Source: Halovibrio variabilis
GTDB lineage: Bacteria > Pseudomonadota > Gammaproteobacteria > Pseudomonadales > Halomonadaceae
DNA length: 64,000 nucleotides
Direction: 5' to 3'
NCBI RefSeq assembly: GCF_007991175.1
Contig: NZ_BJXV01000017.1
Coordinates: 1-64,000 of the forward strand
Part shown: one piece after another, positions 543 through 57,069 of the stretch
Layout: every line of letters starts with the position of its first letter
How positions within the stretch are numbered: position 1 is the first letter of the stretch
Notes under the pieces: generated by a model
Told to the model about the DNA's origin: nothing
Seen by the model: only the letters and a program-made list of their open reading frames with translations
Databases searched by the model: none
Program-made: the position numbers and the translations under genes

Positions 543-1559
543 TCAGTGATGCGATGTACCAACGGGCTGAGGCTCAGCGGGTGCCTCCAGTGCCTCGACA
601 AGGGCCTCAGCGAAGCGGAGGGCAGAGGGGAATCCTCCCCAATGCCAATAGTTGAGCGGTAGAATTACATAGTTGTCTTGTTTTACACTTGGCAAGTGCC
701 GCCACTGGCCATCAGAGAGTAGTTGCCTCCGGCCTCCAACGCGGTCGTAGGAGCTTTCAATAAATATGATTTTAGCATCGGTCTTAAAGAGAGAGCTTGC
801 GCTAACAGCTGTCATTCCCCACTGACCCATATCATTCTGCCAAGCGTTCTTGAGGCCAAGGCGACTTAGCACCATACCTTCAACGCTTCCTTTGCCAAAA
901 ACACGGGCATGACGATCATCAACTAGACGTACGATCAGTAGAGATGAGTTGATGCTATTAAGCTGACTTTTTAAGTTGTCAAAGTGGTGATTTGTTTGCT
1001 TAATATAGTGCTCCGATGCGACAGGATCATTGACTAGAATACCGAGCTGACGAGTCAATTCCTCTACTATTTCCCAATGGTTATGACCATTATCACTATC
1101 GGAAAAATTATAAATTGGGTACTCCTTAACATCAGCAATTTCTCTAAGCCTGGGTACTAAATTGGCATGGAAGGGAGGAGAGATCAGAATATGCTGCAGT
1201 GAGAGGCTTGCAAGAAGCTCAAAATTAGGAAAGCGACGACCACCAAGATTAGTCGCGTCAGAGATGATGCCATCCAGACGTAAATATCTCTCGTACTCTG
1301 TGAGACCTGATAAAAATCCAGAAGGGTGACCAATCGCGGTGAGTGTTTCGGCAATTGCGAAATCAAAGGCCGCTATAGGAGCTGAGTTGCCATCATCGTT
1401 TGCCATCGCAACGTTGCTAATCAATAAACTGATTAGTAGGGCAACCGATAAGGCAATTTTTTTATAGCGTATAGAGCGACAAAAAAGGTTATTTTTATGT
1501 TTCACAATTTTGCCTGTGTTTTGCGTATAAAAAGAGAAGACATGATGATTTTTAAGCAT
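543..1559 (-). CDS. FhuD-like siderophore-binding periplasmic protein (unit A)
   Basis: Periplasmic binding protein of the FhuD class that would hand an iron-siderophore from the outer-membrane receptor to the FhuB-type permease. A hydrophobic signal segment (ALSVALLISLLISNVAMA) precedes the mature start. The fold signatures seen in all five paralogues of this window are present: FDFAIAETL at the mature N-terminus, FPNFELL, LLIVRLVDDRHARVFGKGSV, RLGLKNAW, LPSVKQDNYVILP and SALRFAEALVEALE, which match the layout of E. coli FhuD. No lipobox Cys is seen. The long N-terminal extension is doubtful: a GTG at 1505 with the same upstream bases as in the paralogue at 31402 is an alternative start. It follows receptor A, separated by a hairpin. 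Closest relative in the window is protein E. Confidence 0.85.
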   Translation of the reverse strand: MLKNHHVFSFYTQNTGKIVKHKNNLFCRSIRYKKIALSVALLISLLISNVAMANDDGNSAPIAAFDFAIAETLTAIGHPSGFLSGLTEYERYLRLDGIISDATNLGGRRFPNFELLASLSLQHILISPPFHANLVPRLREIADVKEYPIYNFSDSDNGHNHWEIVEELTRQLGILVNDPVASEHYIKQTNHHFDNLKSQLNSINSSLLIVRLVDDRHARVFGKGSVEGMVLSRLGLKNAWQNDMGQWGMTAVSASSLFKTDAKIIFIESSYDRVGGRRQLLSDGQWRHLPSVKQDNYVILPLNYWHWGGFPSALRFAEALVEALEAPAEPQPVGTSHH

Positions 1560-1590
1560 CCAGTCTTACCGGGTAAGATTGGCTATTAGC

Positions 1591-1623
1591 AAAAAGAACA
1601 CCGGCCAGATATTGATCTGGCCG
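1591..1623 (-). terminator. Hairpin between receptor A and its binding protein
   Basis: Perfect 9-bp stem cggccagat/atctggccg (1602-1610 and 1615-1623) with a 4-nt loop, followed on the minus strand by gtgttcttttt. It looks like an intrinsic terminator, but the binding-protein gene lies just downstream, so it is more likely a leaky terminator/attenuator that lowers expression of the second gene. Confidence 0.65.
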
Positions 1624-1715
1624 ATGATCTTTTATGCGCGAGACTAGCAGATGGATTTATCTAAGCGTGTTGCCTCGTTATCGCATTTTGCAATGAGGTA
1701 TTACATACGTAATGA

Positions 1716-4148
1716 TCACCACTGATAGGAGGCCGTGCCGACGATACTGCGAGGTTCTCCATAGTAACAAGCGTAAGTGCAGGACTCGATATAAATTTCG
1801 TCTGTCAAGTTAGTCGCATTTAACGATAATAGCCACGGGCCAGTCTCATAGCTGACCATGGCGTCAAAAAGGGTAAAATCAGGGACTTCTCCATCAAGAT
1901 AGGCGTTAGGAAGGGTTGAGCCAACATAACGTACGCCAGCACCCAACTTCAGGCTAGGTAAACCGAAATTGCCAAAGCGGTAATCACCCCATAATGAGAA
2001 TTGATTATAGGGCGCTTGACCGGTTCGCTCGCCGACTTTGTCGGGAGTAGCCGGGCTACTTTTCGTTGTACGCGCATCGGTATATGCATAGGCCGCGACC
2101 AAATTGGCATTAAGTCCTATCTGTGTTTTAGCTTCTAACTCAACGCCGCGAGAACGCACCTCGCCCATTTGTACTTGGAAGCTGGTATCCACCGGATCAG
2201 TTACTAGCATGTTTTCCTGAGTCAATTCATAGGCGGTAGCGGTTAACAGAGTATCCCAACCGTCTGGTTGAAAACGGATACCAAGTTCATACTGTTCACC
2301 TTGGGTGGGTTCGAATTGATTGCCACTTCGGTCGGCACCAGTAGCTACCTCGAAAGATTGGCTGAAACTGGCGAAGGGAGCAAATCCATTATCGGCTAAG
2401 TAAACGAACCCGACACGGCCGGTGAAAGCATTGTCGTCCTGCTGCGATCCTTGAGAAGGATCGAAGTATCGCGAAGATTCGGTGTCCGTCCAATCCTGAC
2501 GCCCACCCAGCATGAACACCCATTTATCGGCAATCTTCATCTGGTTCTGAAGATACAGGCCCACCTGCTCTTTGTGGTTGACTAGGGAGTAGGGAAGAGG
2601 AACACTCTCACCTAGTTCGCCGCTTCCATAAATAGGATTATAGATATCTAGGGAAGGGACGGTTTGCTGGTAACGCTCGGTTTCGTGACGTTGGCGAACA
2701 TAGTCGAGACCGACCAGAGTGGTGTTTTCAGTCGCTTCGTCTCCCCAGTCATACTGCAAGGACGTATCGGAAGAGAGTGCCCTGGAGGCATCACGCCGAT
2801 CAAATGCAGTTCTGGAATAAAGGCGTCCAGCGGAACTCTCAGGACTCTGAACAATACTAGTAAGGTCATAGTCTCTATCAGAATGGAAGCTGCGCAAATT
2901 ATGGCGCAATTTCAAGTTATTGGAGAAATCGTGCTCGAACAAATAGCCAAGGGAGTAGCTTTCGTTATCGTAGTCATCGAAGCCGGGTTCGCCAACGAAC
3001 CGCTCCCGAGGTATATCACCGTTAGGGTTGGGTAGGATGGTGCCGTTTGCGGGGAGCCCATAGACATAAGTCGTCTCGTCTCGTTGATACTCGCTGAGTA
3101 GGGTCAGCGAGGTATCCGCGTTAGGTTGCCACTTAAAAGCAGGTGCGATGTAAGTGCGATCATCGGGCACATGGTCGATAAAGGTGTCGCTTTCGCGGCG
3201 TAGCATGGTTAAACGGTAGGAAAACTCACCCTCTTGATCCAAGGAGTCGGAAAAGTCTGCAGAGACTTGACGCCGATCAAAACTGCCTACTTGGAGGTTA
3301 ACTTCGCGCAAGGGCTCGCTGGTAGGGCGTTTACTGACGGCGTTGATCATGCCACCGGGTGCAGCCACACCATAGAGGATCGAAGATGGCCCCTTAAGTA
3401 CCTCCAGCCGTTCCAGTCCATACAGTTCCTGCTGTCCATCAAAGGTATTGGCTTGATATTTGCTGCCATCTCGGTAACCGGTATGCACACTGAAGCCGCG
3501 AACCATCATGCTGTCATGAGTTGTATCAGCACCTCCCCCGCCATAAGAGTTTGCCACGCCCGCCGTATAGCCTAGCGCTTGGTTAACGTTCCGCGCACCA
3601 TAATTGCGGAATTCTTGACTGCTGACCACTGAGATAGACTGTGGCGTTTCAATAATTGGTGTATCGGTTTTGGTGCCTGTTGCACTGCGAGTGGCGGCAA
3701 TACCCTGCACTGGCCCGTAGGCTGTTTCCTGCATCCAGTCGGCTTCCACCCGCATCGTAGAAAGATTCACATCTTCGGGCCGCTCCTCCAGCCGATAACT
3801 ACCATCAGCACGACGCACTGGTGCAAGCCCAGTACCCGCCAGCAAGCGCTGCAACCCTTCATCAACACTGTACTGCCCCTGCAGGCCATTGGTCTGCTTA
3901 CCGCTGGTTAGCGATGCATCAAAGGCAATCTCGATACCTGCACTGACCGCAAACCGGTTAAGCGCAGTGTCGAGTTGTCCAGCGTCGATGGAATAGCTTT
4001 GCTGAGCGGTGCTGTCCTGCCCTGTGGCTTGTTGGGCGAGCGCCGTGGCGGGCAGTCCACCTGCCAGGCAACTGGCCAGCAGGCCGTATTGAATGGCTCG
4101 CGCCAAGGGCGTACGGATAAAGCGGGAGTGCGCTTGCTGCGTCGTCAT
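1716..4148 (-). CDS. TonB-dependent siderophore receptor with STN signalling domain (unit A)
   Basis: Outer-membrane ferric-siderophore receptor of 810 residues. Order of parts: signal peptide about 1-39 (ends ALAQ), STN domain about 51-120 (YSIDAGQLDTALNRFAVSAG ... GLQGQYSVDEGLQRLL), TonB-box-like LSTMRVEA about 129-136, plug from about 165 (ETPQSISVVSSQEF, VRGFSVHTGYRDG, ERLEVLKGPSSILYG), then the barrel ending in an aromatic residue (SYQW). The plug resembles FhuA/FoxA-type hydroxamate receptors; the true ligand is unknown. The STN domain implies signalling to the FecR encoded just upstream, so it should be switched on by its own ligand through FecI. A decayed copy of its C-terminal part lies at 31131-31425. 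Confidence 0.93.
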   Translation of the reverse strand: MTTQQAHSRFIRTPLARAIQYGLLASCLAGGLPATALAQQATGQDSTAQQSYSIDAGQLDTALNRFAVSAGIEIAFDASLTSGKQTNGLQGQYSVDEGLQRLLAGTGLAPVRRADGSYRLEERPEDVNLSTMRVEADWMQETAYGPVQGIAATRSATGTKTDTPIIETPQSISVVSSQEFRNYGARNVNQALGYTAGVANSYGGGGADTTHDSMMVRGFSVHTGYRDGSKYQANTFDGQQELYGLERLEVLKGPSSILYGVAAPGGMINAVSKRPTSEPLREVNLQVGSFDRRQVSADFSDSLDQEGEFSYRLTMLRRESDTFIDHVPDDRTYIAPAFKWQPNADTSLTLLSEYQRDETTYVYGLPANGTILPNPNGDIPRERFVGEPGFDDYDNESYSLGYLFEHDFSNNLKLRHNLRSFHSDRDYDLTSIVQSPESSAGRLYSRTAFDRRDASRALSSDTSLQYDWGDEATENTTLVGLDYVRQRHETERYQQTVPSLDIYNPIYGSGELGESVPLPYSLVNHKEQVGLYLQNQMKIADKWVFMLGGRQDWTDTESSRYFDPSQGSQQDDNAFTGRVGFVYLADNGFAPFASFSQSFEVATGADRSGNQFEPTQGEQYELGIRFQPDGWDTLLTATAYELTQENMLVTDPVDTSFQVQMGEVRSRGVELEAKTQIGLNANLVAAYAYTDARTTKSSPATPDKVGERTGQAPYNQFSLWGDYRFGNFGLPSLKLGAGVRYVGSTLPNAYLDGEVPDFTLFDAMVSYETGPWLLSLNATNLTDEIYIESCTYACYYGEPRSIVGTASYQW

Positions 4149-4197
4149 GAAGATCCCCGTTGAGTGATGTATTTTTTATGTCTACATCCTCTATTCC

Positions 4198-4240
4198 GAA
4201 CGAGAACGAGAATCCCTCAATATTTTATGGAAATTTTCCC
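4198..4240 (-). promoter_or_regulatory. Possible FecI-type promoter of receptor A
   Basis: In the 95-bp gap between fecR A and receptor A the minus strand reads ggaaaat, then about 18 A/T-rich bases, then tgagggattctcgttctcg, continuing into ttcg. The gaaaat element and a ttctcgttcg stretch downstream resemble what I recall of the E. coli fecA promoter recognised by FecI. Spacing differs slightly. The assignment is by resemblance only. Confidence 0.35.
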
Positions 4241-4243
4241 ACT

Positions 4244-5248
4244 TTATTTCTGTCCACCGCTGCGCGGCTTAAGAGTCACCCATAGCGGCGTGCGGTAAAC
4301 CAGTTCCAGCGACAAGGCATCGGCGAGGCTTGCCAGGGCGCGGTCGGTATCTTCGAGGGAGAACACACCGCTCACCCGCCGGTCAGCCACCTCCGGCGCG
4401 CAGCGCAACACCCCATGGCGGTAGCGCTTCAAGGTATCGAGTACTTCGATCACCCGCATGCTCTCCGCCACCAACCGTCCCTCAAAGCGTGCCAGTTCGG
4501 TCGTGTCTAGCGGTTCGGGCGAGGTCACCCGCTCGGCACTCATGGCGGCTTGCTGGCCGGCATCCAACGTCGTCCGCTTGGCACTTCTCCGCCGCTCCAG
4601 GGCCACCCGCCCCTCGAAAACCGCTACGTGGGTGCTATCGCTATGCTGCTGCACGCTGAAGCGGGTGCCCAACGGATAAGAAAGCCCTTCTCGCGTCATC
4701 ACGCTGAACGTGCGGGCATCCGGGGTTTTAGAGGTGGTAATCAGCACCCCGCCACGCAGAAGATGGAGTCGCCGTTGATGGCCATCGAAGCTGACGTCGA
4801 TGGCGGTATCGGTATCCAGGCGCAGTTGAGTGCCATCGCTCAACGTCACGTCACGCATCTCGCCAATGCCGGTCGCGTAGTCGGCAAACTGGCGCTGCCA
4901 TTGAGGCGTGCGCGGCAGCCCAAAGCCCAGGCCGCCTGCGAGCAGCGCAACGCCGCCCCACTGCAGTAGATGACGCCTGGAGACCTGCGAGGAGGCCTCG
5001 AATAACTCACTGCGCGCCGCATGGCGCGGCAACGTTCCCAATCGACCGTCGATAGCCTGAAGCTGCTGCCAGGCACGTTCGTGCTCCGGTGCGGCTTGCC
5101 GCCATTGCAGGCAGGCCTTGCGCTGAGCGTCGGTGGCGTCGTCGCTCCATAGCCTTGCCATCCACAGGCTGGCCTGCTCCAGAACAGCAGGGGAGATGGT
5201 TTCTCGAGAAGGCGTCTCTTGGGAGGCGTTGGCGGATGGTCGGCTCAT
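4244..5248 (-). CDS. FecR-family anti-sigma/sigma-regulator (unit A)
   Basis: Inner-membrane FecR-type protein that relays the occupied state of receptor A to its sigma factor. The N-terminal cytoplasmic domain (DUF4880 type: LEQASLWMARLWS ... CLQWRQAAPEHERAWQQL) is followed by one membrane segment (WGGVALLAGGLGFGL) preceded by SRRHLLQW, a twin-arginine-like motif as known for some FecR proteins. The periplasmic FecR domain (VTLSDGTQLRLDTDTAIDV ... RGGVLITT ... GTRFSV ... VFEGRVALE) comes next, and a C-terminal STN-like part ends the protein. I chose the ATG at 5248, 13 nt after the sigma-gene stop; an ATG at 5278 overlapping the sigma gene is possible. It is cotranscribed with the sigma gene upstream. 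Confidence 0.88.
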   Translation of the reverse strand: MSRPSANASQETPSRETISPAVLEQASLWMARLWSDDATDAQRKACLQWRQAAPEHERAWQQLQAIDGRLGTLPRHAARSELFEASSQVSRRHLLQWGGVALLAGGLGFGLPRTPQWQRQFADYATGIGEMRDVTLSDGTQLRLDTDTAIDVSFDGHQRRLHLLRGGVLITTSKTPDARTFSVMTREGLSYPLGTRFSVQQHSDSTHVAVFEGRVALERRRSAKRTTLDAGQQAAMSAERVTSPEPLDTTELARFEGRLVAESMRVIEVLDTLKRYRHGVLRCAPEVADRRVSGVFSLEDTDRALASLADALSLELVYRTPLWVTLKPRSGGQK

Positions 5249-5261
5249 GGCATCGGCTCGC

Positions 5262-5786
5262 TTAGGGTTGAGATTCATGCATGGCCTGATGGCACACCAG
5301 CAGCGCCTTGGCGATGTACTTCTCCACCGATGAAACCGACACCTCCAAGGCGTCAGCGATTTCCTGGTAGCTCCGGCCATCCAGGCGGCACATAAAAAAA
5401 GCCCGGCGTGGCTTGTCGGGTAAGCCATGCAATAGCGCATCAATCTCGACTAATGCCTCGATAGTAAGTGCTTGCTCCTCTGGCGAAGGCGCCATGGGTT
5501 CCGGGAGCAGGCTCAGGGCATCAAGATAGGCGGTTTCAATACGCCGACGGCGATAGTGATCGATCACTAACCCCTTGGCGATCTGAGTTAGAAAACGCCG
5601 CGACTGCTCCGGTGCTGGCGTAGTGCCCCGCGCCAGTATACGTAGGTAAGTATCGTGAGCGAGATCCGCAGCGGTGTGGGAACAGCCCAGCTTGGCGCTC
5701 AGCCAGCGCCGCAGCCAACTGTGGTGATTATGATAGAGCGCGTCGAAAGGAGCCTCGCGCCTACCCTGCTGCTTTATCGATACCAT
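5262..5786 (-). CDS. ECF sigma factor, FecI type (unit A)
   Basis: Iron-starvation sigma factor of 174 residues. Region 2 is visible as FDALYHNHHSWLRRWLSAKL ... AADLAHDTYLRILA and KGLVIDHYRRRRIE; region 4 as LPDKPRRAFFMCRLDGRSYQ ... SVSSVEKYIAKALL, a helix-turn-helix. These match FecI/PvdS-like sigma factors that act with a FecR partner and an STN receptor, both directly downstream here. A Fur-box-like palindrome lies 70 bp upstream of the start, so iron starvation should control production of the sigma factor and ligand binding its activity. Confidence 0.92.
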   Translation of the reverse strand: MVSIKQQGRREAPFDALYHNHHSWLRRWLSAKLGCSHTAADLAHDTYLRILARGTTPAPEQSRRFLTQIAKGLVIDHYRRRRIETAYLDALSLLPEPMAPSPEEQALTIEALVEIDALLHGLPDKPRRAFFMCRLDGRSYQEIADALEVSVSSVEKYIAKALLVCHQAMHESQP

Positions 5787-5856
5787 CGCCCGTTGCCATT
5801 GATTGCCTATGCCAAATGCCCCAAGGAGTGGGCCACACCAGAGGCAAACAATAAGT

Positions 5857-5875
5857 GATAATACGTATCATTACA
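5857..5875 (-). promoter_or_regulatory. Fur box upstream of the unit A sigma gene
   Basis: On the minus strand tgtaatgatacgtattatc matches the 19-bp Fur consensus (GATAATGATAATCATTATC) at 14 positions and has a tgata/tatca dyad. It lies between the end of binding protein B and the sigma gene start at 5786, in the right place to repress the fecI-fecR operon. Confidence 0.6.
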
Positions 5876-5916
5876 AATATGTTGGCGGTATCGAATCATT
5901 TAAGTAATAGGCCCTA

Positions 5917-6831
5917 TTAGGGCTCGGCGGGCGTCTCCAGTGCCTCAACCAGAGCCTCGGCGAAGCGGAGGGCGGAGGGATGAACGCCGGCTATCCAAAA
6001 AGTAGATGGTAAAACGACATAATCACCCCGCTGAACGCTGGGAAGATAACGCCACATACCACTTGTTTCGATATTGTTTTCTATGCCTGCAGGGAATGCA
6101 CTTTCCATCACGACCAGTCTCGCGTCTTCGAGGTGAATATTGAAGAGCTCCCTGATACTTACCAGTGAGCGTCCCCATCGATCAGTCTCTCCTGTCCATG
6201 CATTGCGAAGGCCTAATCGCAGCAGCACTCCCTGAAATATACTGTTATCACCGTATACGCGAACATATTGCTCAGTTATTAATTGGACGACTAATAAAGG
6301 AGGCTGAGGTTCCAGCTTATTTTTAAGGGATTCCAATTTAGATTGAGTATTTATAATCAACTTTTCTGCTGCGGCTCTTCGTCCTGACAGTTCACCCATT
6401 TCAAGAACAAAGGCATCGAACCTTGACCATAGATCATCGCTACTATTGTTAGTATATGGGTAGGACTGGATCACGTTGGAAGTTACAATATTATCTAATA
6501 CAGCTTTCATCCGGGTATGACGAGGTGCAAGAAGCATTCGACTCGGATTAATACTGCTTAACAGCTCTAGGTTGGGAAATGATGGTGTTCCGATATCAGT
6601 AACATCCGCATGTGCATATTCATTGCCGGTCCATGTGTGAAACACCGTAATATTACCCATAAGCACAGAACCAGGAGGATTAAGTGCAATAAGCGCTTCC
6701 GCGGTAGTCCAATCGAAAACCGCAATGGATGGTGGTGCTGAAGCAGCCAGTGCTGAACTGGTGTTCAAGGAAAGTATCAGCATGAAAGGCAGAGTACGCA
6801 AGAATCTAAACATAAGTGGGAAAATAAACAT
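5917..6831 (-). CDS. FhuD-like siderophore-binding periplasmic protein (unit B)
   Basis: Second paralogue of the FhuD-type binding proteins. A signal peptide ending near SALAA precedes IAVFDWTTAEALIAL. Family landmarks are FPNLELLSSINPSRMLL, LLVVQLITEQYVRVYGDNSI, LRLGLRNAW, WRYLPSVQRGDYVVLP and SALRFAEALVEALE. At 304 residues it has the size of E. coli FhuD (296). The ATG at 6831 is backed by aaaggag seven bases upstream. It lies behind receptor B, with a hairpin in the 148-bp gap, and is the last gene of the long minus-strand unit that starts with fhuB. It probably delivers the receptor B ligand to FhuB. Confidence 0.87.
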   Translation of the reverse strand: MFIFPLMFRFLRTLPFMLILSLNTSSALAASAPPSIAVFDWTTAEALIALNPPGSVLMGNITVFHTWTGNEYAHADVTDIGTPSFPNLELLSSINPSRMLLAPRHTRMKAVLDNIVTSNVIQSYPYTNNSSDDLWSRFDAFVLEMGELSGRRAAAEKLIINTQSKLESLKNKLEPQPPLLVVQLITEQYVRVYGDNSIFQGVLLRLGLRNAWTGETDRWGRSLVSIRELFNIHLEDARLVVMESAFPAGIENNIETSGMWRYLPSVQRGDYVVLPSTFWIAGVHPSALRFAEALVEALETPAEP

Positions 6832-6906
6832 AGCGAACTCCTTTATGGAAATATAGTGTAAGATAGACCGGCAACCTGCATTTTCATGGCCTTGCTTTTT
6901 GAACTA

Positions 6907-6934
6907 ACTCAGCCCCACTAAGGTGAGGCTGAGT
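6907..6934 (-). terminator. Hairpin between receptor B and its binding protein
   Basis: Inverted repeat actcagcc/ggctgagt (6907-6914 and 6927-6934), with further pairing of ccac and ggtg inside the loop. No long U run follows, so it is more likely an attenuating or mRNA-stabilising intercistronic structure than a strong terminator. Equivalent hairpins occur in units A, C and D. Confidence 0.55.
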
Positions 6935-6979
6935 AAAATGCTTGCTTAGAAATATATTGAGCACTAAAATGCTGGCTTT

Positions 6980-9409
6980 TTAGAAGTCATACTTCATTGT
7001 TAGCATGAAATTACGTGGTGCACCGTAATAGTTGTGTCTAGTAATCCCCCGCACTGCAGAGTAATACTCTTTATCAGTTAGATTGTTGCCATTTAAAGAA
7101 ATGTCCAAGCTCTCATTGACGCGATAACCAGCCATGGCTGAAACAGTGGTATAGCCCCCATGTTCGATACGAAAACCTAAGCTTTCGGCATAAACACTGC
7201 TGACCGTATTTATCCCGGCACCCACTCGCCAGCCCTGATTAGGATTATCGCTAAAGCGGTAGCGTGACCACAGATTGAAGTTATGTTCCGGCGTATCCGG
7301 CGAAAGTGTGAGGCCTTCTGAGCTAGCATCCCTTACGTACTCAGTTTGTGTATAGGCATAGCCCGCACTCAGATCCCAACGGGGCATTAGCTGACCGCTG
7401 ACCTCCAGCTCAAGGCCCTCACTCTTGGCTTCGCCAATGGGAATTGAAAAACCTGGGTTATTAGGATCCGTATAGGCGCGGTTGGTGTCTTCAATACGAA
7501 AAACTGCAGCATGCCAGTTTAAGTCGCCTCCAGCATGGGAACCCTTAATGCCGACCTCGTACTGTTCGCCTTCTCTTGGATCGATCGGGTCGCCATCGCT
7601 GCTATTCGCCGTTTGTGGCTCGAAAATGCCAGTGTAACTCGTGTATAGATTAATTTCTTCGTTAAGCCGATAGATCAAGCCAGCGTAGGGAATAAACTCG
7701 GTACCACTATCTCCGTCAATAATAAAATTATCTGTTTCCCACCAATTGACTCGACCACCAAGTGCAATAGTGAAGTCATCGATAATATTGAAGCGCGCTT
7801 GACCATAAGCGGCGTATTGTTTTGTGCTGAACTTCGATCTTCCTGGGGTGGTTTCGAAATTTGGTTCTGCGCGACCATACTCTGGATCAAACAGATTCTG
7901 GGGAAGGTATTTTGGATCGCCGTAGGCCCATTCACTATCCCGATCACTATTCTGGTAACTCGCACCTAGCACTGCTTCATGGGTTACTCCAGTTAATTGA
8001 AATGGCGTTCTAACTTGAGCTTCGATGTGATCAGCCTGTTGCACAGTATCCCACGCGATCTGACGAATCATAAAATCACCGCTATCTTTTTCGACGGTGG
8101 TGAGATCACCCTCGCTACTTTTCTTCAAACTTGCATCACGATCCAGTCGGTTTGCCTGAAATGTAATCTCACCGCCATTTGCGAGGCGATGTTCAAGTTC
8201 AAGGAAGTAACGCTGCGCGTCTCCAGCCTGTTTGTCCCAGTCGGATCCGAGGTAGGTAGAGCGGTCTACATTAGGTAATGTGCCATCACTGTAGATAGGC
8301 AGTCCTGAGTGAGGACGGAACTCTTCATCTTGTAAAGTTACACCCATTGACAGTGTCGTGTCGGGGGATAAGTCAAACTCAAGCGTGCCATAGCCTATCT
8401 GGTTCTCTGAGTAGACGTGGTCAATAAAAGAGTTTCTATCATCGTAGACACCAACAAAGCGACCGCGAACTCGTCCTTCGCTATCTAGCGCGCCAGTAAC
8501 GTCGACAACACTCCGGTAAGCGTCATCAGAGCCGGCGGAAAGGGAAACCGAGGCCTGGCTTTCTCCTAGGGCACGCTTGCGCACTAAGTTGATGGTGCCG
8601 CTGGGTTGGCCAGATCCATGGAGAATACCTGCGGGCCCACGAAGCACTTCTATACGGTCAAGCAACGCTGTATCAAATACGCCGGCACTTTGCCAAGCGG
8701 AGCCGACACTCTGAACCGGGCTACCATCCATAAGAAAGGAGTCGATATTATAGCCACGCGCCTTGATTGTGTACTGATTCCCCCCGTATTCGTTCACAGT
8801 GACGCCAGTGACGTTACGCATGGCCTCAGCCAGTGAGGTCGTCTTTTGGTCATCCAATTTTTCCCGCGTCACGACACTAACGGACTGAGGCGTTTCCTTA
8901 ACTGACTGCGAAAACAACCCGATAGTAGCGCTTTCACTTGTATAGGAATTACTGTTCTCGGTCATGCCGTAGGGCAGACGTGCTCCTGTCACCTCAACCG
9001 TCGACAGCGCCACACCATCTGGCCGCTCTTCCAACCGATAAGTACCATCCCCCTGCCGTACGGCTCTCAGGCTTGTACCACTCAGCAGCCGCTCCAGTCC
9101 TTCATCAACGTTGTACTGCCCCTGCAACCCAGGACTTTGCCGCCCTTGCCCCAACTCGCCAGCGCCGCTGATAAAAACACCTGATTCAGCAGCGAAGCGG
9201 TTGAGCACCGTGCTGACCGGGCCTGCGGGGATATCGTACTGGCGTGTTTGCTGTTGGTTGGTTTGCGCCATGGCGGGTAGCGATAACAGCGGCGTGGCTA
9301 GCAAACAGGCGGCGGCGAGGTGTACCGCCAGCGCGAGGGCGCGGCGACGCCGTGGGAGCTGACGAGTAACGGTTAGTGATGGTTGTAACGCGGTACGTTG
9401 TTGCGGCAT
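6980..9409 (-). CDS. TonB-dependent siderophore receptor with STN signalling domain (unit B)
   Basis: Outer-membrane receptor of 809 residues. After a long basic signal peptide (about 1-49) comes an STN domain (YDIPAGPVSTVLNRFAAESG to about 127), a TonB-box-like ALSTVEVTG, a plug (KETPQSVSVVTREKLDDQ, IKARGYNIDSFLMDGSP, LDRIEVLRGPAGILHGSGQP) and a barrel ending KYDF. It resembles FpvA/FoxA-type receptors for hydroxamate or mixed siderophores. It is clearly related to receptor C (19760-21889) along plug and barrel, but C has no STN domain. Its sigma/anti-sigma pair lies directly upstream. The start codon abuts a perfect 12-bp inverted repeat that could hide the ribosome-binding site. Confidence 0.93.
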   Translation of the reverse strand: MPQQRTALQPSLTVTRQLPRRRRALALAVHLAAACLLATPLLSLPAMAQTNQQQTRQYDIPAGPVSTVLNRFAAESGVFISGAGELGQGRQSPGLQGQYNVDEGLERLLSGTSLRAVRQGDGTYRLEERPDGVALSTVEVTGARLPYGMTENSNSYTSESATIGLFSQSVKETPQSVSVVTREKLDDQKTTSLAEAMRNVTGVTVNEYGGNQYTIKARGYNIDSFLMDGSPVQSVGSAWQSAGVFDTALLDRIEVLRGPAGILHGSGQPSGTINLVRKRALGESQASVSLSAGSDDAYRSVVDVTGALDSEGRVRGRFVGVYDDRNSFIDHVYSENQIGYGTLEFDLSPDTTLSMGVTLQDEEFRPHSGLPIYSDGTLPNVDRSTYLGSDWDKQAGDAQRYFLELEHRLANGGEITFQANRLDRDASLKKSSEGDLTTVEKDSGDFMIRQIAWDTVQQADHIEAQVRTPFQLTGVTHEAVLGASYQNSDRDSEWAYGDPKYLPQNLFDPEYGRAEPNFETTPGRSKFSTKQYAAYGQARFNIIDDFTIALGGRVNWWETDNFIIDGDSGTEFIPYAGLIYRLNEEINLYTSYTGIFEPQTANSSDGDPIDPREGEQYEVGIKGSHAGGDLNWHAAVFRIEDTNRAYTDPNNPGFSIPIGEAKSEGLELEVSGQLMPRWDLSAGYAYTQTEYVRDASSEGLTLSPDTPEHNFNLWSRYRFSDNPNQGWRVGAGINTVSSVYAESLGFRIEHGGYTTVSAMAGYRVNESLDISLNGNNLTDKEYYSAVRGITRHNYYGAPRNFMLTMKYDF

Positions 9410-9459
9410 TTCGATTCCCCTTGCAGATGGTTTTTGGCTGCTTATATAGGGGAATCGAA
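9410..9459 (-). promoter_or_regulatory. Perfect 12-bp inverted repeat over the ribosome-binding site of receptor B
   Basis: Arms ttcgattcccct (9410-9421) and aggggaatcgaa (9448-9459) are exact complements separated by 26 nt. In the minus-strand transcript the second arm is aggggaatcgaa, immediately followed by the ATG, so the Shine-Dalgarno sequence aagggga sits inside the stem. This could be a translational switch or, as DNA, an operator. Confidence 0.7.
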
Positions 9460-9515
9460 CCAGCGCGGAAAAAGGGAACCGGAAAAGCGCTTTTTTCTTT
9501 TATTCTTGGCTCGTT

Positions 9516-10535
9516 TTATTCGCGCTCTGCCCCGGCCGCCTCGATCTTGATCCACCAGGGCATGACTTTGCGCACCTTCACCGGCAACGTGGTCTCGACC
9601 ATGTTCAAGGTGCGCTCCAGATCGTCAAGCGGGAAAGCGCCGAGCAGCGTGAGATTCGCCACCGCCGGGTCGACCTCTAATCGGCCGTGGTGATGCTGGC
9701 TTAGCTCCGTTGCGAAGGTCCTCAACGACATATTTTCGGCCAACAACACCCCGTTGGCCCAGGCGGCTCGGCTACCGTCGGCGGGGTTGAGTTCGCCAAT
9801 ACCGTTAGCGGCATAGCTGGCCTGCTGCCCAGCGTCGACCACCTGGCGTTGGCCAGCATGGTCGGCATCGCCAAGGGTCTGAATAGCCACCGCGCCTTCG
9901 AACACCGCCAGCAGTTCGTCGGCCTGGCGTTGGCGCACGCTGAAGCGGGTGCCCAAGGGGGTCAACCGCGCGCTTCGGGTATCCAGGTAAAAGGGGCGTT
10001 CGGGGTCTTTACCGGTCTTAATCAGCACTTCACCTGCCACCAGTTGCAGTCGGCGCCGCTCCTGGTCGTAGTCGACGTCCAATGCCGAGGCGCTGCTTAG
10101 CCATACCTGGGTGCCATCCTCCAGTTCGATGCGGGAAATTTCGCCGGTGGCGGAGCGATAGTCGGCGCCCCAGTAGGCCACCCATTGCGGCAAGGGTGTC
10201 CACTGCCAGGAGAGCCCTACCAACACAGCCACGATTGCCAGGCTAGAGAGCCCACTCAGCAGATGCCACCGCCCCTGCCGCCGATGCCGCGCCGAGCTGA
10301 TGACCTGGTCGGCGGTGTGCCGCTCCGCCTCATCCAGGTGGGTGGTAAAACGTCGGCTGACACCTTCCACCTGTTGCCAGGCCCAGCGGTGGGTGTCGCT
10401 GGCATCATGCCAAACCTGCCAACGTTGACGCTCAGTTGCCGACATCTCCCCCGCTTGCCACTCAGCAAACCACTCGGCGGCCTGGGCCAAGGCGCGGCGC
10501 TTGGCGGCGTCATCGGGGCGAACGGCAGAGGCCAT
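9516..10535 (-). CDS. FecR-family sigma regulator (unit B)
   Basis: Second FecR-type inner-membrane regulator, 339 residues. It has the cytoplasmic DUF4880-like domain (LAQAAEWFAEWQAGEMSATE ... WHDASDTHRWAWQQVEG), one membrane helix near residues 92-112 (SSLAIVAVLVGLSWQW), the FecR domain (IELEDGTQVWLSSASALDV ... VAGEVLIKTG ... PLGTRFSVRQ ... VFEGAVAIQ) and a C-terminal STN-like region (LLAENMSLRTFATELSQHH). The start directly abuts the stop of the sigma gene (10536), indicating translational coupling. It should report the state of receptor B to the sigma factor upstream. Confidence 0.9.
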   Translation of the reverse strand: MASAVRPDDAAKRRALAQAAEWFAEWQAGEMSATERQRWQVWHDASDTHRWAWQQVEGVSRRFTTHLDEAERHTADQVISSARHRRQGRWHLLSGLSSLAIVAVLVGLSWQWTPLPQWVAYWGADYRSATGEISRIELEDGTQVWLSSASALDVDYDQERRRLQLVAGEVLIKTGKDPERPFYLDTRSARLTPLGTRFSVRQRQADELLAVFEGAVAIQTLGDADHAGQRQVVDAGQQASYAANGIGELNPADGSRAAWANGVLLAENMSLRTFATELSQHHHGRLEVDPAVANLTLLGAFPLDDLERTLNMVETTLPVKVRKVMPWWIKIEAAGAERE

Positions 10536-11102
10536 TTAGAGGCTGGCCTCGAAACCGGCTTCAATCAACGCACACTGCAGCATGGCCTGGGCCATGTACT
10601 TCTTGACCATGCGCTCAGAAACCCCCAGTTCCTCGGCAATCTGCCGATAGGGTTTGCCCTGCAGTTGCGAAGCCAGGAAAGCAGTCGCCACCTTTTCAGG
10701 CAGCCGCGCCAGCATGCGGTCGATCTCGCATAGCGTCTCGATCACGATCTGCTGGTGTTCGACGGAAGGCAGGTGTGATTCAGCGCGGGCGGCCAGGGCG
10801 TCTTGCCAGGCTTTTTCGATATCCAGACGGCGCCAATGATCCACGCACAGCCCCTTGGCCATACGGCTCAGATAGGCCCTGGCCCCATCGAAACTATCCA
10901 GATGGCGCGGCGTTTGCAGCAAACGCACAAAGGCGTCCTGGGCCAGATCAGCCGCCGACTCGCCACAGCCCAGCCGCCGGCTCAGCCACTGCTGCAACCA
11001 GGGTTGATGGTGGTGATAGAGCTGGCCGAGTGAGTCCCGACAGCCGGTATGATAAGCCGTTGTTTCGGCTGATTGCTGGTTAGCCATCACGCTTTCACCC
11101 AT
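10536..11102 (-). CDS. ECF sigma factor, FecI type (unit B)
   Basis: FecI-like sigma factor of 188 residues. Region 2 reads [20 protein letters not shown] ... [16 protein letters not shown] and [16 protein letters not shown]; region 4 reads [20 protein letters not shown] ... [16 protein letters not shown]. It overlaps the end of the exporter gene by 8 nt (gtgaatgggtga), so it is embedded in the fhuB-fhuF-exporter transcription unit rather than behind its own visible Fur box. An in-frame ATG at 11087 is an alternative start. It probably drives receptor B together with the FecR that follows. Confidence 0.9.
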
Positions 11103-12753
11103 TCACCCTTGCCACCGCATCGCGGCTGGCTGCTTTGCGCTCCTCCCCGGTCAACTCATAGAGCTGCCCGCCGCGCATTTCCAGCAGGCGGTCGGCCTGA
11201 TCGAAGTAGTGGTCGTCATGGCTGATCACCACCAGCGTTTTGCCCAGCGCGCGAAGCTGGGGCAGTAGCTCGCGGTAGAACACCCGCCGGAACTGAGGAT
11301 CCTGGTCGGCGGCCCACTCGTCCAGCAGCAGCAGGTCGCGCTGCTCGGCCACCGCCAACAGCATCGCCAGGCGTTTGCGCTGCCCTTGTGAAAGATTGGC
11401 GTTGGTAACCCGGTCGCCGTCAAAGTCGAGCTTGCTGTGCATGCCCAGTGCCGCCAGCCACTCCTCCATCAGCGCGGGGTCCGGAGACTCCCCCGCAGGC
11501 CCAATCAAGCGATCAAACAGGTGCAGATCGGTATAAATAGCCGAAATGTGCTGGCGATAGGTTGTCCAGTCCGCCTCCTGCAACGGCCTGCCATCGACGC
11601 GAACATAACCGCTCTGGGGCTGATAAAGCCCGGTTAATAGCCTTGCCAGGGTCGATTTACCACTGCCGTTACCACCAATCAGAAACACCACCTCGCCACG
11701 CTTCAAGGTCAGGTCGAGAGGGCCAATGGCAAAGCCCGACCGCGCCTCTTCAGCGGGGTATCGATAGGTGACCTGATCCAGCGCCAGCACTTGCCAGTCG
11801 TGGCGCTGGGCGCCGATGTCAAAGGTTTCGCGATGTTCTGCTAAATCTAATGCGCTGATTTTTTCGAACGCCACCCGCGCGTTAATCAACGGCGGAAAGG
11901 CGCCAATGGCTTGAATCAGCGGTGCGCGCAAAAATAGCAGCGTAAGCGAGAAGGTAGTCGCCACCTGGGCCGACGACCAGCCCAGGCCGTTGGCCAGGAA
12001 AAACACCACACCGATGGCGCCCAGCATCATGATATTGAACCAGTTCACGGCGCTAAGATGGTAGGTATCGCCGCGAATAATCTGGTGCCGATACTCTTTG
12101 GCGTTGGGCGTATAAACGTCGCGGTAGAGCCACTCGGCACGGTCGCGGTTGAGCGCCAGCTCTTTACGCCCCTCAATCACCGACTGGTAATCCGCGTAGA
12201 GGCGATCTTCAGAATCGCGCAGCTTGGCCATATGCCGATAAACCTTCGCTACCAAGCGCATTCCCACCAGGATCGTAACAATCACCCACAGCGCTGTGAC
12301 GGCCAGCATGGCAGGCGAGAGCCAAGCCAAATAAACAGTGACACCCGCCGTCAATACGCCCCCCTGCACCAGCTCTGGCAAGCGCACAAAGGCGACGGTG
12401 ATATAGCGCACATCGCTGGATAAGCTGGCCAGCAAACGCGCGCTGCCGATCTGCTCGATACGTTCGATATCGGTATCCAGAATGCGTTTAATCAACTGCC
12501 CCCGCAGCCGATAAACGAAGTGATGGCCCAAGGTGGTCAAGGCTAACTGCGAGGCCAGGGTGATCGCCAGCAGCAGCGCCACCAGACCCAGAAATTCCGG
12601 CAGGATTCGCCAAGGGTCGGCGAAGGTGCCCAGCATCCGTTCATTGATATAGGCAATGACCCCAATGCCAAGACCAGCGCTTACCAGACTGAGCACCACC
12701 ACGGCCACAAATGGCCAGCGGTAATCACGCCAGACAATCCTCAACAACTCCAT
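11095..12753 (-). CDS. Cyclic-peptide/siderophore exporter, PvdE/SyrD-type ABC protein
   Basis: Fused membrane and ATPase ABC exporter of 552 residues, full length for the cyclic-peptide export (PvdE/SyrD) family. Six membrane helices occupy about 1-300. The ATPase has Walker [15 protein letters not shown], signature [12 protein letters not shown], Walker [14 protein letters not shown] (the DEWAADQDP motif is characteristic of this family) and the switch VISHDD. PvdE-type pumps move siderophore precursors to the periplasm; here no biosynthesis genes accompany it. It may export or recycle a siderophore, or be a leftover of a lost pathway. Downstream of fhuF by 26 nt and overlapping the sigma gene. 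A truncated homologue lies at 17956-19314. Confidence 0.88.
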
Positions 12754-19759: not shown

Positions 19760-21889
19760 GTGAACCAACCTCTTTTCCGCAAGCGGTGGCTAACGGCAGC
19801 TATTGCTGCAGCTGCCTGCAGCTCTTCGGCGTTTGCTCAGGAAGCAGACCAAGACTCATCTGATTTGCCAGTTGTCAGGGTAGTAGGCGAAGCAATCTCT
19901 GAGCCTGCTACCGAAGATACAGGGTCTTACACGTCAAACAGGGTGACCATAGGTAAGCAAGGACTGTCACTCAAAGAGACACCTCAATCTGTCAGCGTCA
20001 TCACCCGAGAGCGCATGAACGACCAGAATATGACAACGCTGGATGACGTCCTTACACGCACCACAGGCATCACCAAACGAGACTTCGGCCCCACCGCATC
20101 GGTCTACCTCTCGCGCGGCTACGAAATTGACACCATGCTGCTCGACGGCACCCCCATCGACAGCGCGATCGGCGTAACCGACACCATGTTCGATACTGCG
20201 GTACTGGACCGTGTGGAAGTCCTACGAGGGCCGGCAGGGCTCATTCAGGGCTCAGGTGAGCCCAGTGGTACCGTTAATCTGGCGCGCAAACGCGCCCAGG
20301 AAGAGTTCGGCTTTCAGACGGCGCTATCATATGGCTCTCACGACGCCTATCGCGGTGAAATCGATGTTACCGGAGCGTTGGATGAGTCCGGCCGACTTCG
20401 TGGTCGCTTTGTCGGCGTACATGATGATCGGAACCATTTCATCGACCATGTCTATACCGAAAACACCACAGGGTATGGAACGTTAGAATACGACATCACT
20501 CCGAGCACCACCGTATCCGTCGGTCTCATGGATCAATCAGGCGAATCCAGGCCCAATTATGGCCTCCCTCAACTCGCCAATGGGCAGTTACTGGACATTG
20601 ATCGGTCTACCTATCACGGCTCGCTCTGGGACGTGAAGGATGAAAGCATCGAGCGCTATTTCGCCGAGCTGGAGCATGAGCTTGATAACGGAGGCAATTT
20701 TCGTATTATCGCCAACCATATTGATCGAGAAACCGATACACAGCAAAGCACCGCTGGCGTCAGCATCCCTACATCAAACTCGGATGATATTGATATCTGG
20801 CAATGGCGCATCGTCAACCCACGCCAAGATCGCTTCGTCGATGCCACGCTTTCCACGCCTTTTGAGCTGGCAGGAAAGACACACAACCTAATGGTCGGCG
20901 CCAGCCATAGGATCACCGAGGAAGAAACCTTATTCGGATCCGGCGATCCTCAGTTCATTCAGCGCAACTTGGCCAATCCCAATCCAAACACACCGAAACC
21001 CACATTCGACGTCAACCAAACTCGGGATCTGGAGACGCAGGAAACCAGCCTCTACAGTCAGCTCAGACTATCGGTCCTTGAAGACACCACTCTCATTGCA
21101 GGCGGCCAAGTGAGCTGGTGGGAATCAGAGGACCAACTGGATTCAACCAACAACTTCGAGATCGACAGCGAGTTCACGCCCTATGTCGGCTTGATCTATG
21201 ATATCAACGATCAAGTCTCAACCTATGCCAGCTACACCGAAATTTTCCAGCCGCAGAGCTCGCAGCAGGTGAACGGCGACTTCCTCGACCCCCGCACCGG
21301 TCAGCAGGTTGAGCTCGGGCTGAAGGGGGAGCACATGAACGGAGCCTTGAACTGGCATGCCTCGACGTTCAAGATTACCGACAAAAACCGCGGCATCACT
21401 GACCTGGACAATCCGGGCTTTTCAGTTGCCGAGGGTGAAGCGGAAAGTGAAGGCTTCGAGCTTGAGGTCACCGGCCGCCTGATGCCTCGCTGGGATATTT
21501 CAGCAGGCTATGCCTATACCCAGACAGAACTAGTCAACGACCCAGTACAGGAAGGTAGACCGCTTTCCACCGACACGCCGGAGCATGACCTTAAGCTCTG
21601 GACTCGCTATCGATTCTCCGATAACCCTGATCAAGGCTGGAGAGTGGGCGCCGGTCTCAACTATTCAAGTGAAACCTTCGCCGAAGCCGGGGACACGCGT
21701 TGGGAGCAAGGCGGATACACGACAATCTCCGGCCTGATTGGCTATCGACTCAATCGTAACCTGGACTTCGCCCTGACCGGAGAAAACCTGACAGACAAGA
21801 AGTATTTTGAAACTGTCAGAGCTAGAACTCGCAACAACTATTATGGTGAACCACGTAACTTCATGCTAACAATGCGCTACCAGTACTAA
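19760..21889 (+). CDS. TonB-dependent siderophore receptor without STN domain (unit C)
   Basis: Outer-membrane receptor of 709 residues with a GTG start backed by aaggag. Signal peptide to about residue 26 (SSAFAQ), TonB-box-like LPVVRVVGE, plug (KETPQSVSVITRERMNDQ, LSRGYEIDTMLLDGTP, LDRVEVLRGPAGLIQGSGEP) and a barrel ending MRYQY. It parallels receptor B along its length (for instance TPEHDLKLWTRYRFSDNP and NNYYGEPRNFMLTM) but lacks the STN domain, and no FecI/FecR pair is linked, so it is not expected to signal. FpvA/FoxA/FhuE-like; ligand unknown. Paired with binding protein C downstream. Confidence 0.93.
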   Translation: MNQPLFRKRWLTAAIAAAACSSSAFAQEADQDSSDLPVVRVVGEAISEPATEDTGSYTSNRVTIGKQGLSLKETPQSVSVITRERMNDQNMTTLDDVLTRTTGITKRDFGPTASVYLSRGYEIDTMLLDGTPIDSAIGVTDTMFDTAVLDRVEVLRGPAGLIQGSGEPSGTVNLARKRAQEEFGFQTALSYGSHDAYRGEIDVTGALDESGRLRGRFVGVHDDRNHFIDHVYTENTTGYGTLEYDITPSTTVSVGLMDQSGESRPNYGLPQLANGQLLDIDRSTYHGSLWDVKDESIERYFAELEHELDNGGNFRIIANHIDRETDTQQSTAGVSIPTSNSDDIDIWQWRIVNPRQDRFVDATLSTPFELAGKTHNLMVGASHRITEEETLFGSGDPQFIQRNLANPNPNTPKPTFDVNQTRDLETQETSLYSQLRLSVLEDTTLIAGGQVSWWESEDQLDSTNNFEIDSEFTPYVGLIYDINDQVSTYASYTEIFQPQSSQQVNGDFLDPRTGQQVELGLKGEHMNGALNWHASTFKITDKNRGITDLDNPGFSVAEGEAESEGFELEVTGRLMPRWDISAGYAYTQTELVNDPVQEGRPLSTDTPEHDLKLWTRYRFSDNPDQGWRVGAGLNYSSETFAEAGDTRWEQGGYTTISGLIGYRLNRNLDFALTGENLTDKKYFETVRARTRNNYYGEPRNFMLTMRYQY

Positions 21890-51582: not shown

Positions 51583-51610
51583 TAGCGCCAGCACACCACT
51601 AGCGTAACGA

Positions 51611-51648
51611 AAAACGGGCGGCCTCAAGCAAGAGCGCCGCCCGTTTTT
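51611..51648. terminator. Bidirectional terminator between convergent genes
   Basis: aaaacgggcggc and gccgcccgttttt form a GC-rich stem with A and T tails on either side, midway between the PQQ dehydrogenase (+) and the TonB-dependent receptor (-). Confidence 0.88.
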
Positions 51649-56944: not shown

Positions 56945-56991
56945 CGAACCTTTCGAGGTTCGGATAACAAGGCCCGCTTATGCGGGCCTTG
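56945..56991 (+). terminator. Double hairpin terminator of the cold-shock gene
   Basis: cgaacct/aggttcg (56945-56962) is followed by aaggcccgc/gcgggcctt with loop ttat (56969-56990). The second is the stronger. Directly after it gttgcgtttggct occurs twice (56991-57030). Confidence 0.75.
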
Positions 56992-57069
56992 TTGCGTTTG
57001 GCTGTAAAAAGTTGCGTTTGGCTATAAAAAAGTTGGTTTGAGGTGTATCAGTAATGCGTTTGGGAGCGA

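Follow-up and report, generated by a model that had tools for sequence, protein, structure and literature searches.

The window, i.e., the whole 64,000-nucleotide stretch of Halovibrio variabilis DNA analyzed here, carries on its minus strand the gene of a TonB-dependent receptor with an STN signaling domain (receptor B, 6980..9409). Upstream of it lie a fecR-like anti-sigma/sigma regulator gene (9516..10535) and a fecI-like ECF sigma factor gene (10536..11102), the start of which overlaps the end of an ABC transporter gene (11095-12753). Pfam matches at the locus comprised sigma-70 regions 2 and 4, FecR, DUF4880, STN, plug and barrel, i.e., fecI and fecR adjoin a receptor with an N-terminal STN domain, the gene set of a FecI-type (ECF, cell-surface signaling) promoter. 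FecCD, FhuF, ABC, fecI, fecR and receptor B form a run on the same strand, and no terminator-like site was found on the minus strand between fecI and the start of receptor B. Two FecI-FecR-receptor sets are arranged in tandem on one strand (window 543-11102), each receptor being followed by a periplasmic binding protein gene, and FecR-domain matches in the whole genome number two.

Between fecR and receptor B, the leader on the minus strand reads TTCGATTCCCCT, 26 nt, AGGGGAATCGAA and ATG. The left (5') arm occupies 9448..9459 and the right (3') arm 9410..9421; in mRNA sense the latter runs from 9421 to 9410 and is followed by the receptor B ATG at 9409-9407. Both arms are complementary at 12/12 positions, and we could hence confirm the perfect 12-bp inverted repeat of the initial annotation, with its 26-nt spacer and a second arm that contains the Shine-Dalgarno sequence (SD) and abuts the ATG. 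This SD, AGGGG, is the sole SD-like sequence in the right-arm region as judged by eye. The left arm combines TTCGA, which is part of the FecI-type GTTCGA element, with TTCCCCT, which is complementary to the SD (anti-SD). The loop (9422..9447, minus strand) may contain a 4-bp inner stem of GCAG (9441-9438) and CTGC (9426-9423), and its sequence differs among orthologues.

RNA folding of 9380-9470 gave a predicted structure of -27.7 kcal/mol (z -3.84), and 0 of 200 shuffled sequences were equally stable. The SD is paired in the predicted minimum-energy fold as well as in the ensemble. At 37 C the predicted probability of an open SD was 0.012; the probability that the SD is unpaired was 0.112 when the SD window was widened and the coding part shortened. 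A temperature-opened switch, as initially proposed, finds no backing here, since predicted opening only varied from 0.004 at 4 C to 0.026 at 65 C, and we rejected an RNA thermometer on this prediction. A known riboswitch or RNA family was rejected because Rfam models gave 0 matches in the window at gathering score, and an intrinsic terminator because the minus strand has no terminator site (stem, then T run) at the repeat.

Exact 12-mer inverted-repeat seeds with spacers of 0-60 occurred four times in the window and stemmed from three repeats, compared with a mean of 0.33 and a maximum of 4 seeds in dinucleotide-shuffled windows (n=100). A 12-bp repeat somewhere in 64 kb is unremarkable; its position on the SD is the notable part. 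When the SD was held fixed, about one in 100 shuffled upstream regions paired equally well (p 0.01, 300 shuffles). The other two perfect inverted repeats of the window (13 and 12 bp, at 51610-51648 and 56966-56993) have short loops and a terminator-like shape.

The left arm of the hairpin overlaps a promoter-like sequence. The window leader reads GGTTCCCTTTTT...CTGGTTCGATTCCCCT, the E. coli fecA sequence is GTCCTTTTT-ACCCTTCTC-GTTCGACTC, and paralogue leaders of the genus read GTCCCTTTTT...CTCGTTCGACC, ...CCCCGTTCGACTT and ...CTCGTTCGGAA. We putatively assigned the -10-like element GGTTCCCTTTTT (9469..9480, minus strand) by its homology with E. coli fecA GTCCTTTTT, using the fecA numbering given in an excerpt of the review PMC9249621. 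Counted from the first T of TCCCTTTTT, the GTTCGA element common to FecI-type promoters (9455..9460, minus strand) lies 17 nt in the 3' direction, which is the E. coli fecA spacing; by hand count, the window and E. coli agree in a distance of 17 nt between the pyrimidine -10-like element (TCCC/TCCT) and GTTCG. The leader thus has a pyrimidine -10-like element and GTTCG at fecA spacing, as looked for in a FecI-type promoter, and genus leaders are similar. GTTCG, which the left arm overlaps, is carried by E. coli fecA and other FecI-type leaders; the TTCCCCT that follows it in the window is absent after GTTCG from E. coli fecA and other genus leader types. Just upstream of the -10-like element, at window 9483-9494, lies a palindrome, AAAAGCGCTTTT, which among the 18 orthologous leaders described below has this form in the window only.

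For E. coli fecA, an excerpt of PMC9249621 places the Fur box at -36 to -17. Projected onto the window, this position suggests a transcription start at 9465 on the minus strand, uncertain by several bases, with an alternative about 15 nt further 3'. By analogy with fecA, the left arm would then lie at about +7 to +18 and be transcribed. If GTTCG were instead the true -10 element, the start would be at about 9448 and FecI messages would be made without the arm. The predicted probability of an open SD was 0.012 for a start at 9465 and 0.019 at 9452, and it rose to 0.50 at 9449 or 9446. Whether FecI-made mRNA carries the left arm hence depends on the start site, for which we use the projected position.

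From fold prediction and sequence comparison, we tentatively favor a reading in which the hairpin acts in the mRNA leader as a translational brake or insulator that hides the receptor B SD and guards against unsignaled receptor synthesis. Coincidence is a serious rival to this brake, although we consider it unlikely on balance: a FecI promoter segment rich in pyrimidines would by chance be complementary to a purine-rich SD, the perfect 12 bp would reflect lineage drift, and the hairpin would form but be unselected. The fold z score favors the brake, whereas a p no lower than about 0.01 with the SD fixed agrees with coincidence. The restriction of TTCCCCT to this leader type, in comparison with E. 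coli fecA and the other genus leaders, points to the brake and speaks against coincidence.

When 82 genomes of the genus were searched with a DNA pattern, 18 contained the repeat. This pattern fixed most of the left arm; a separate FecR search, however, gave orthologues of 73-100% identity in the same 18 of 82 genomes (other matches ≤38%), and the invariance of the left arm is therefore not merely an effect of the search. As both searches pick the same 18, every sampled genome with this fecR has the repeat, i.e., its absence from close relatives, named in the initial annotation as an argument against a function, was not seen. No similar leader was found in plasmid records. In one relative (G021:C1, about 370900-372700; L079, L041), the promoter between fecR and the receptor is interrupted by an HTH gene and a HipA-like gene, both named by eye from sequence; a -10-like element precedes this insert, and a fecR tail together with a full promoter and hairpin comes after it.

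Counted from the outermost to the innermost, the 12 pairs are formed in 5, 16, 13, 18, 7, 18, 18, 18, 18, 18, 17 and 17 of the 18 orthologous loci. All 12 are formed in just 3/18, and perfect 12-bp pairing as a conserved unit was rejected for this reason. Inner pairs 6-12, a 7-bp core, are formed in 17-18 of the 18; judged from this comparison, it is this core of the repeat that is conserved. Among the outer pairs, pair 1 is broken at 13 loci, pair 3 at 5 and pair 5 at 11, because the right arm changed while the left arm stayed, and no compensating left-arm change was seen. The single left-arm change among the 18, C to T in three genomes, retains a G-U pair (TTCCYCT). Compensatory changes among the 18 orthologues amount to 0; a distant leader, L261, has one pair altered on both sides and one G-U pair. 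The predicted probability of an unpaired SD is ≤0.013 in 17 of the 18 orthologous leaders and 0.19 in the remaining one (G012).

The initial proposal that an RNA hairpin hides the SD is backed by this core pairing in 18 genus genomes together with the predicted stable fold. Low SD accessibility in 17/18 leaders, the kept inner pairs, the retained G-U pair and the agreement of the repeat with the separate FecR search all favor the brake. The uncompensated breaks in the outer pairs count against it, and core conservation alone could stem from a conserved promoter element plus a conserved SD. Coincidence, in turn, is consistent with a left arm that is invariant save for one C/T site, with a right arm that drifts uncompensated in the 18 orthologues, and with the small number of fully paired loci, whereas the altered pair in L261 speaks against it.

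The initial annotation had suggested a search for the same motif before other receptors in the genome. The full repeat has no second copy there with ≤1 mismatch per arm; the second FecR-linked receptor, however, has a different SD-masking fold. In this receptor A leader, GGAUUCUCGUU is predicted to fold on AACGGGGAUCU and to mask the SD (pairing p 0.06). In predicted folds of other genus leaders, L111/L118 mask the SD with AUCUCGU/ACGAGAU, and L099 and L102 (L098 type) do so with other sequences; L101 (L098 type) and L120 adopt other folds. Shuffle p values of the eight genus leaders in the non-redundant set were 0.010 (window B), 0.007 (L099), 0.023 (L118), 0.027 (L119), 0.056 (L098), 0.06 (window A), 0.163 (L097) and 0.292 (L120). 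Outside the genus, L261 has the SD-masking segments GAUUCUCC/GGAGGAUC (p 0.01, pairing read by hand) and can pair GATTCTCC with GGAGGATC; compared with the window, one pair is changed from C-G to U-A and one from U-A to U-G. L267, also from outside the genus, can pair CCTTTTTGGCGA with TCGCCAAAAAGG (p 0.003, pairing read by hand), the left arm being the -10 element itself. Masking by different sequences in the leaders of receptor A, L111/L118, L099 and L261 argues for the brake, and its occurrence in several other genus leader types argues against coincidence.

Four near-twins of receptor B (L018, L019, L024 and L044; 50-82% identity) match it from residue 120-129 onward, i.e., past the STN part. 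These receptors have another leader, with no excess of SD pairing (z -0.0, 0.73, -0.37 and 0.2), which again favors the brake for receptor B. A further TonB receptor of the window (19760-21889), with the four near-twins as its relatives, has no STN match and shares 50% identity with receptor B across residues 119-809. In this receptor, a leader that looks Fur-box-like by eye replaces the FecI-type one; receptor B and receptors of the 19760-21889 type form a natural pair for a comparison of regulation.

SD masking as a possible rule of FecI leaders was assessed with 161 FecR loci, 129 among the matches listed in one search and 32 from other searches; of these, 152 were followed by an ORF, 118 showed an STN match and 116 had a start that could be used. 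Loci with gaps <60 nt were then dropped; with E. coli fecA and 10 leaders from the genus the set came to 120, of which 106 were left when near-duplicates and short ones were removed. Addition of 39 leaders from 46 order-level loci, which were part of the listed matches, raised the final set to 127 non-redundant leaders. In the 106 leaders, pairing of the upstream region with the SD had a mean z of -0.60, with 15 leaders at p below 0.05. In an initial, crude control set of 270 genes, the mean z was -0.27, and 7% of the genes fell below -2.3 compared with 12/106 leaders (p 0.007). Own upstream-SD pairs were stronger than swapped ones in the 106 leaders (mean -1.46 vs 0.01; 1/20001 counting the observed arrangement), which favors the brake and speaks against coincidence.

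As second controls we used 183 genes from 20 stretches of 19 of the leaders' own genomes. The mean z was -0.64 in the 127 leaders and -0.05 in these controls (p 3e-5), with an upstream GC of 0.51 vs 0.59 between the sets and z shuffle-normalized for GC. A z below -2 was found in 17/127 leaders vs 9/183 controls (Fisher 0.008), and an SD-opening probability below 0.05 in 9/127 vs 8/183 (Fisher 0.22). By fetch order, strong cases made up 10/26 of the leaders fetched first and 7/101 of the later ones. The 101 held-out leaders, which were not blind in that the sequences of most had been inspected before the tests using them, showed a small shift in mean z (-0.48 vs -0.05 in the 183 controls, p 5e-4). 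Strong cases were not enriched among them (7/101 vs 9/183, Fisher 0.33), and their predicted SD opening did not clearly differ from that of the controls (p 0.058). The top single score belonged to L383, apparently a repeat whose GTG start was mis-called; its removal gave a held-out mean of -0.44, with 6/100 strong cases. In 10/14 leaders the best SD partner overlapped the promoter, a frequency not above that for swapped SDs (0.76); this comparison is weak, given that the promoter regular expression recognized only 14/127 leaders. In the E. coli fecA leader, upstream-SD pairing did not exceed that of shuffled sequences (z 0.24).

A general law of FecI leaders was rejected, as the held-out leaders showed a shift in the mean only. 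Because these leaders had no strong-case excess and E. coli fecA had no excess pairing, we conclude that strong masking is a feature of the receptor B orthologues and of certain other leaders, several from this genus. Both results count against the brake, as do the small mean shift, the p of 0.058 for SD opening and the promoter being equally often the best partner with swapped SDs. The missing strong-case excess and the partner comparison are, moreover, what coincidence would lead one to expect.

We nevertheless favor the translational brake, because read-through messages, if made, contain the arm and no terminator-like site lies from fecI to receptor B on the minus strand. The 5' arm would be dual-coded, with GTTCGA in the FecI-type promoter region and TTCCCCT behind it as anti-SD. 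Messages with the left arm, e.g., read-through from FecCD-FhuF-ABC-fecI-fecR, would be poorly translated into receptor B; lowered translation, the occurrence of read-through and its role as the main target are all suppositions of this scheme. FecI-started messages might escape, as the arm would be missing from transcripts initiated at about 9449 or beyond. With a start before about 9449, S1, kinetics or some factor would have to open the hairpin, and it counts against the brake that the projected start at 9465 puts the whole arm in the FecI message, with no known opener.

Translation might also be gated by the start site itself, since FecI-started messages would begin inside or past the arm: the promoter would double as anti-SD, fecIR read-through messages would be silent, and FecI-started ones would lack the arm and be translated. 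We regard this as rather improbable; if true, the sigma factor would decide both transcription of the gene and translatability of the message. Improbable, too, is a regulated switch, i.e., a trans-acting factor (sRNA, RNA-binding protein or ligand) that opens the same hairpin on receptor demand, on top of FecI. FecI messages starting near 9465 would carry the full hairpin and so require an opener, for which the 26-nt loop would be available; this loop, however, largely differs among orthologues, and neither an Rfam gathering-score match nor predicted thermal opening supports a switch. Stems at the 5' end are known mRNA stabilizers, e.g., in ompA, and the hairpin, about 6 nt from the 5' end if the projected start is right, might chiefly stabilize the message by blocking 5'-end-dependent decay, and passing ribosomes would open it. 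We consider this quite improbable, as inclusion of the SD would be unnecessary, yet the pairs over the SD are those conserved. A DNA operator for a regulator besides FecI, the other initial proposal, would have a dimer bound to its two half-sites; it agrees with the perfect dyad in the window but was rejected as very improbable, because the left arm overlaps the FecI-type GTTCG element, the right arm drifts alone while the left is unchanged, paired segments shift in sequence, position and spacing among other leaders, and the full site, at ≤1 mismatch per arm, is single-copy in the genome.

Surface-signaling systems are described as transcriptional in an excerpt of PMC9249621. If real, a promoter element with a second role in masking the ribosome site of its own gene would add a translational layer to surface signaling, and such masking would be a simple way of keeping read-through silent where iron-uptake operons are tightly packed. 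According to the same review excerpt, alterations downstream of the fecA start strongly lower transcription (PMC9249621); the brake suggests a second, RNA-level reading of this loss of fecA expression.

The E. coli ferric citrate system FecI/FecR/FecA shares with the window the fecI-fecR-receptor order and a pyrimidine -10 element followed by GTTCGA at the same distance. Unlike in the window, CCUUCUC lies on GGGGAAGG in the fecA minimum-energy fold but does not pair above shuffles, and no SD masking of E. coli fecA is described in the excerpts of the review PMC9249621. SD-sequestering leader hairpins of riboregulators, RNA thermometers and riboswitch platforms resemble the window in that the SD lies inside a stable stem adjoining the start codon. 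Hairpins that mask an SD are common. In contrast to SD-sequestering riboregulators and riboswitches, the masking strand of the window overlaps an ECF sigma promoter element, and its fold is a predicted one. A riboswitch platform on another TonB receptor is the btuB riboswitch, the subject of PMC11162775. Among the matches listed from the open-access literature, no paper addressed SD masking in FecI-dependent receptor leaders in its title or abstract start, and there was no precedent for an SD-masking strand that overlaps an ECF sigma promoter element and differs in sequence between neighboring systems. Long or read-through messages of a known class carry a 5' segment that masks and silences them and that is absent when transcription starts further downstream; the window would match this class if FecI messages start past about 9449. 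The sRNAs OmrA/OmrB, which have fecA among their targets, resemble the proposed brake in exerting post-transcriptional control over outer-membrane receptor messages. They act in trans, whereas the masking strand of the window would act in cis.
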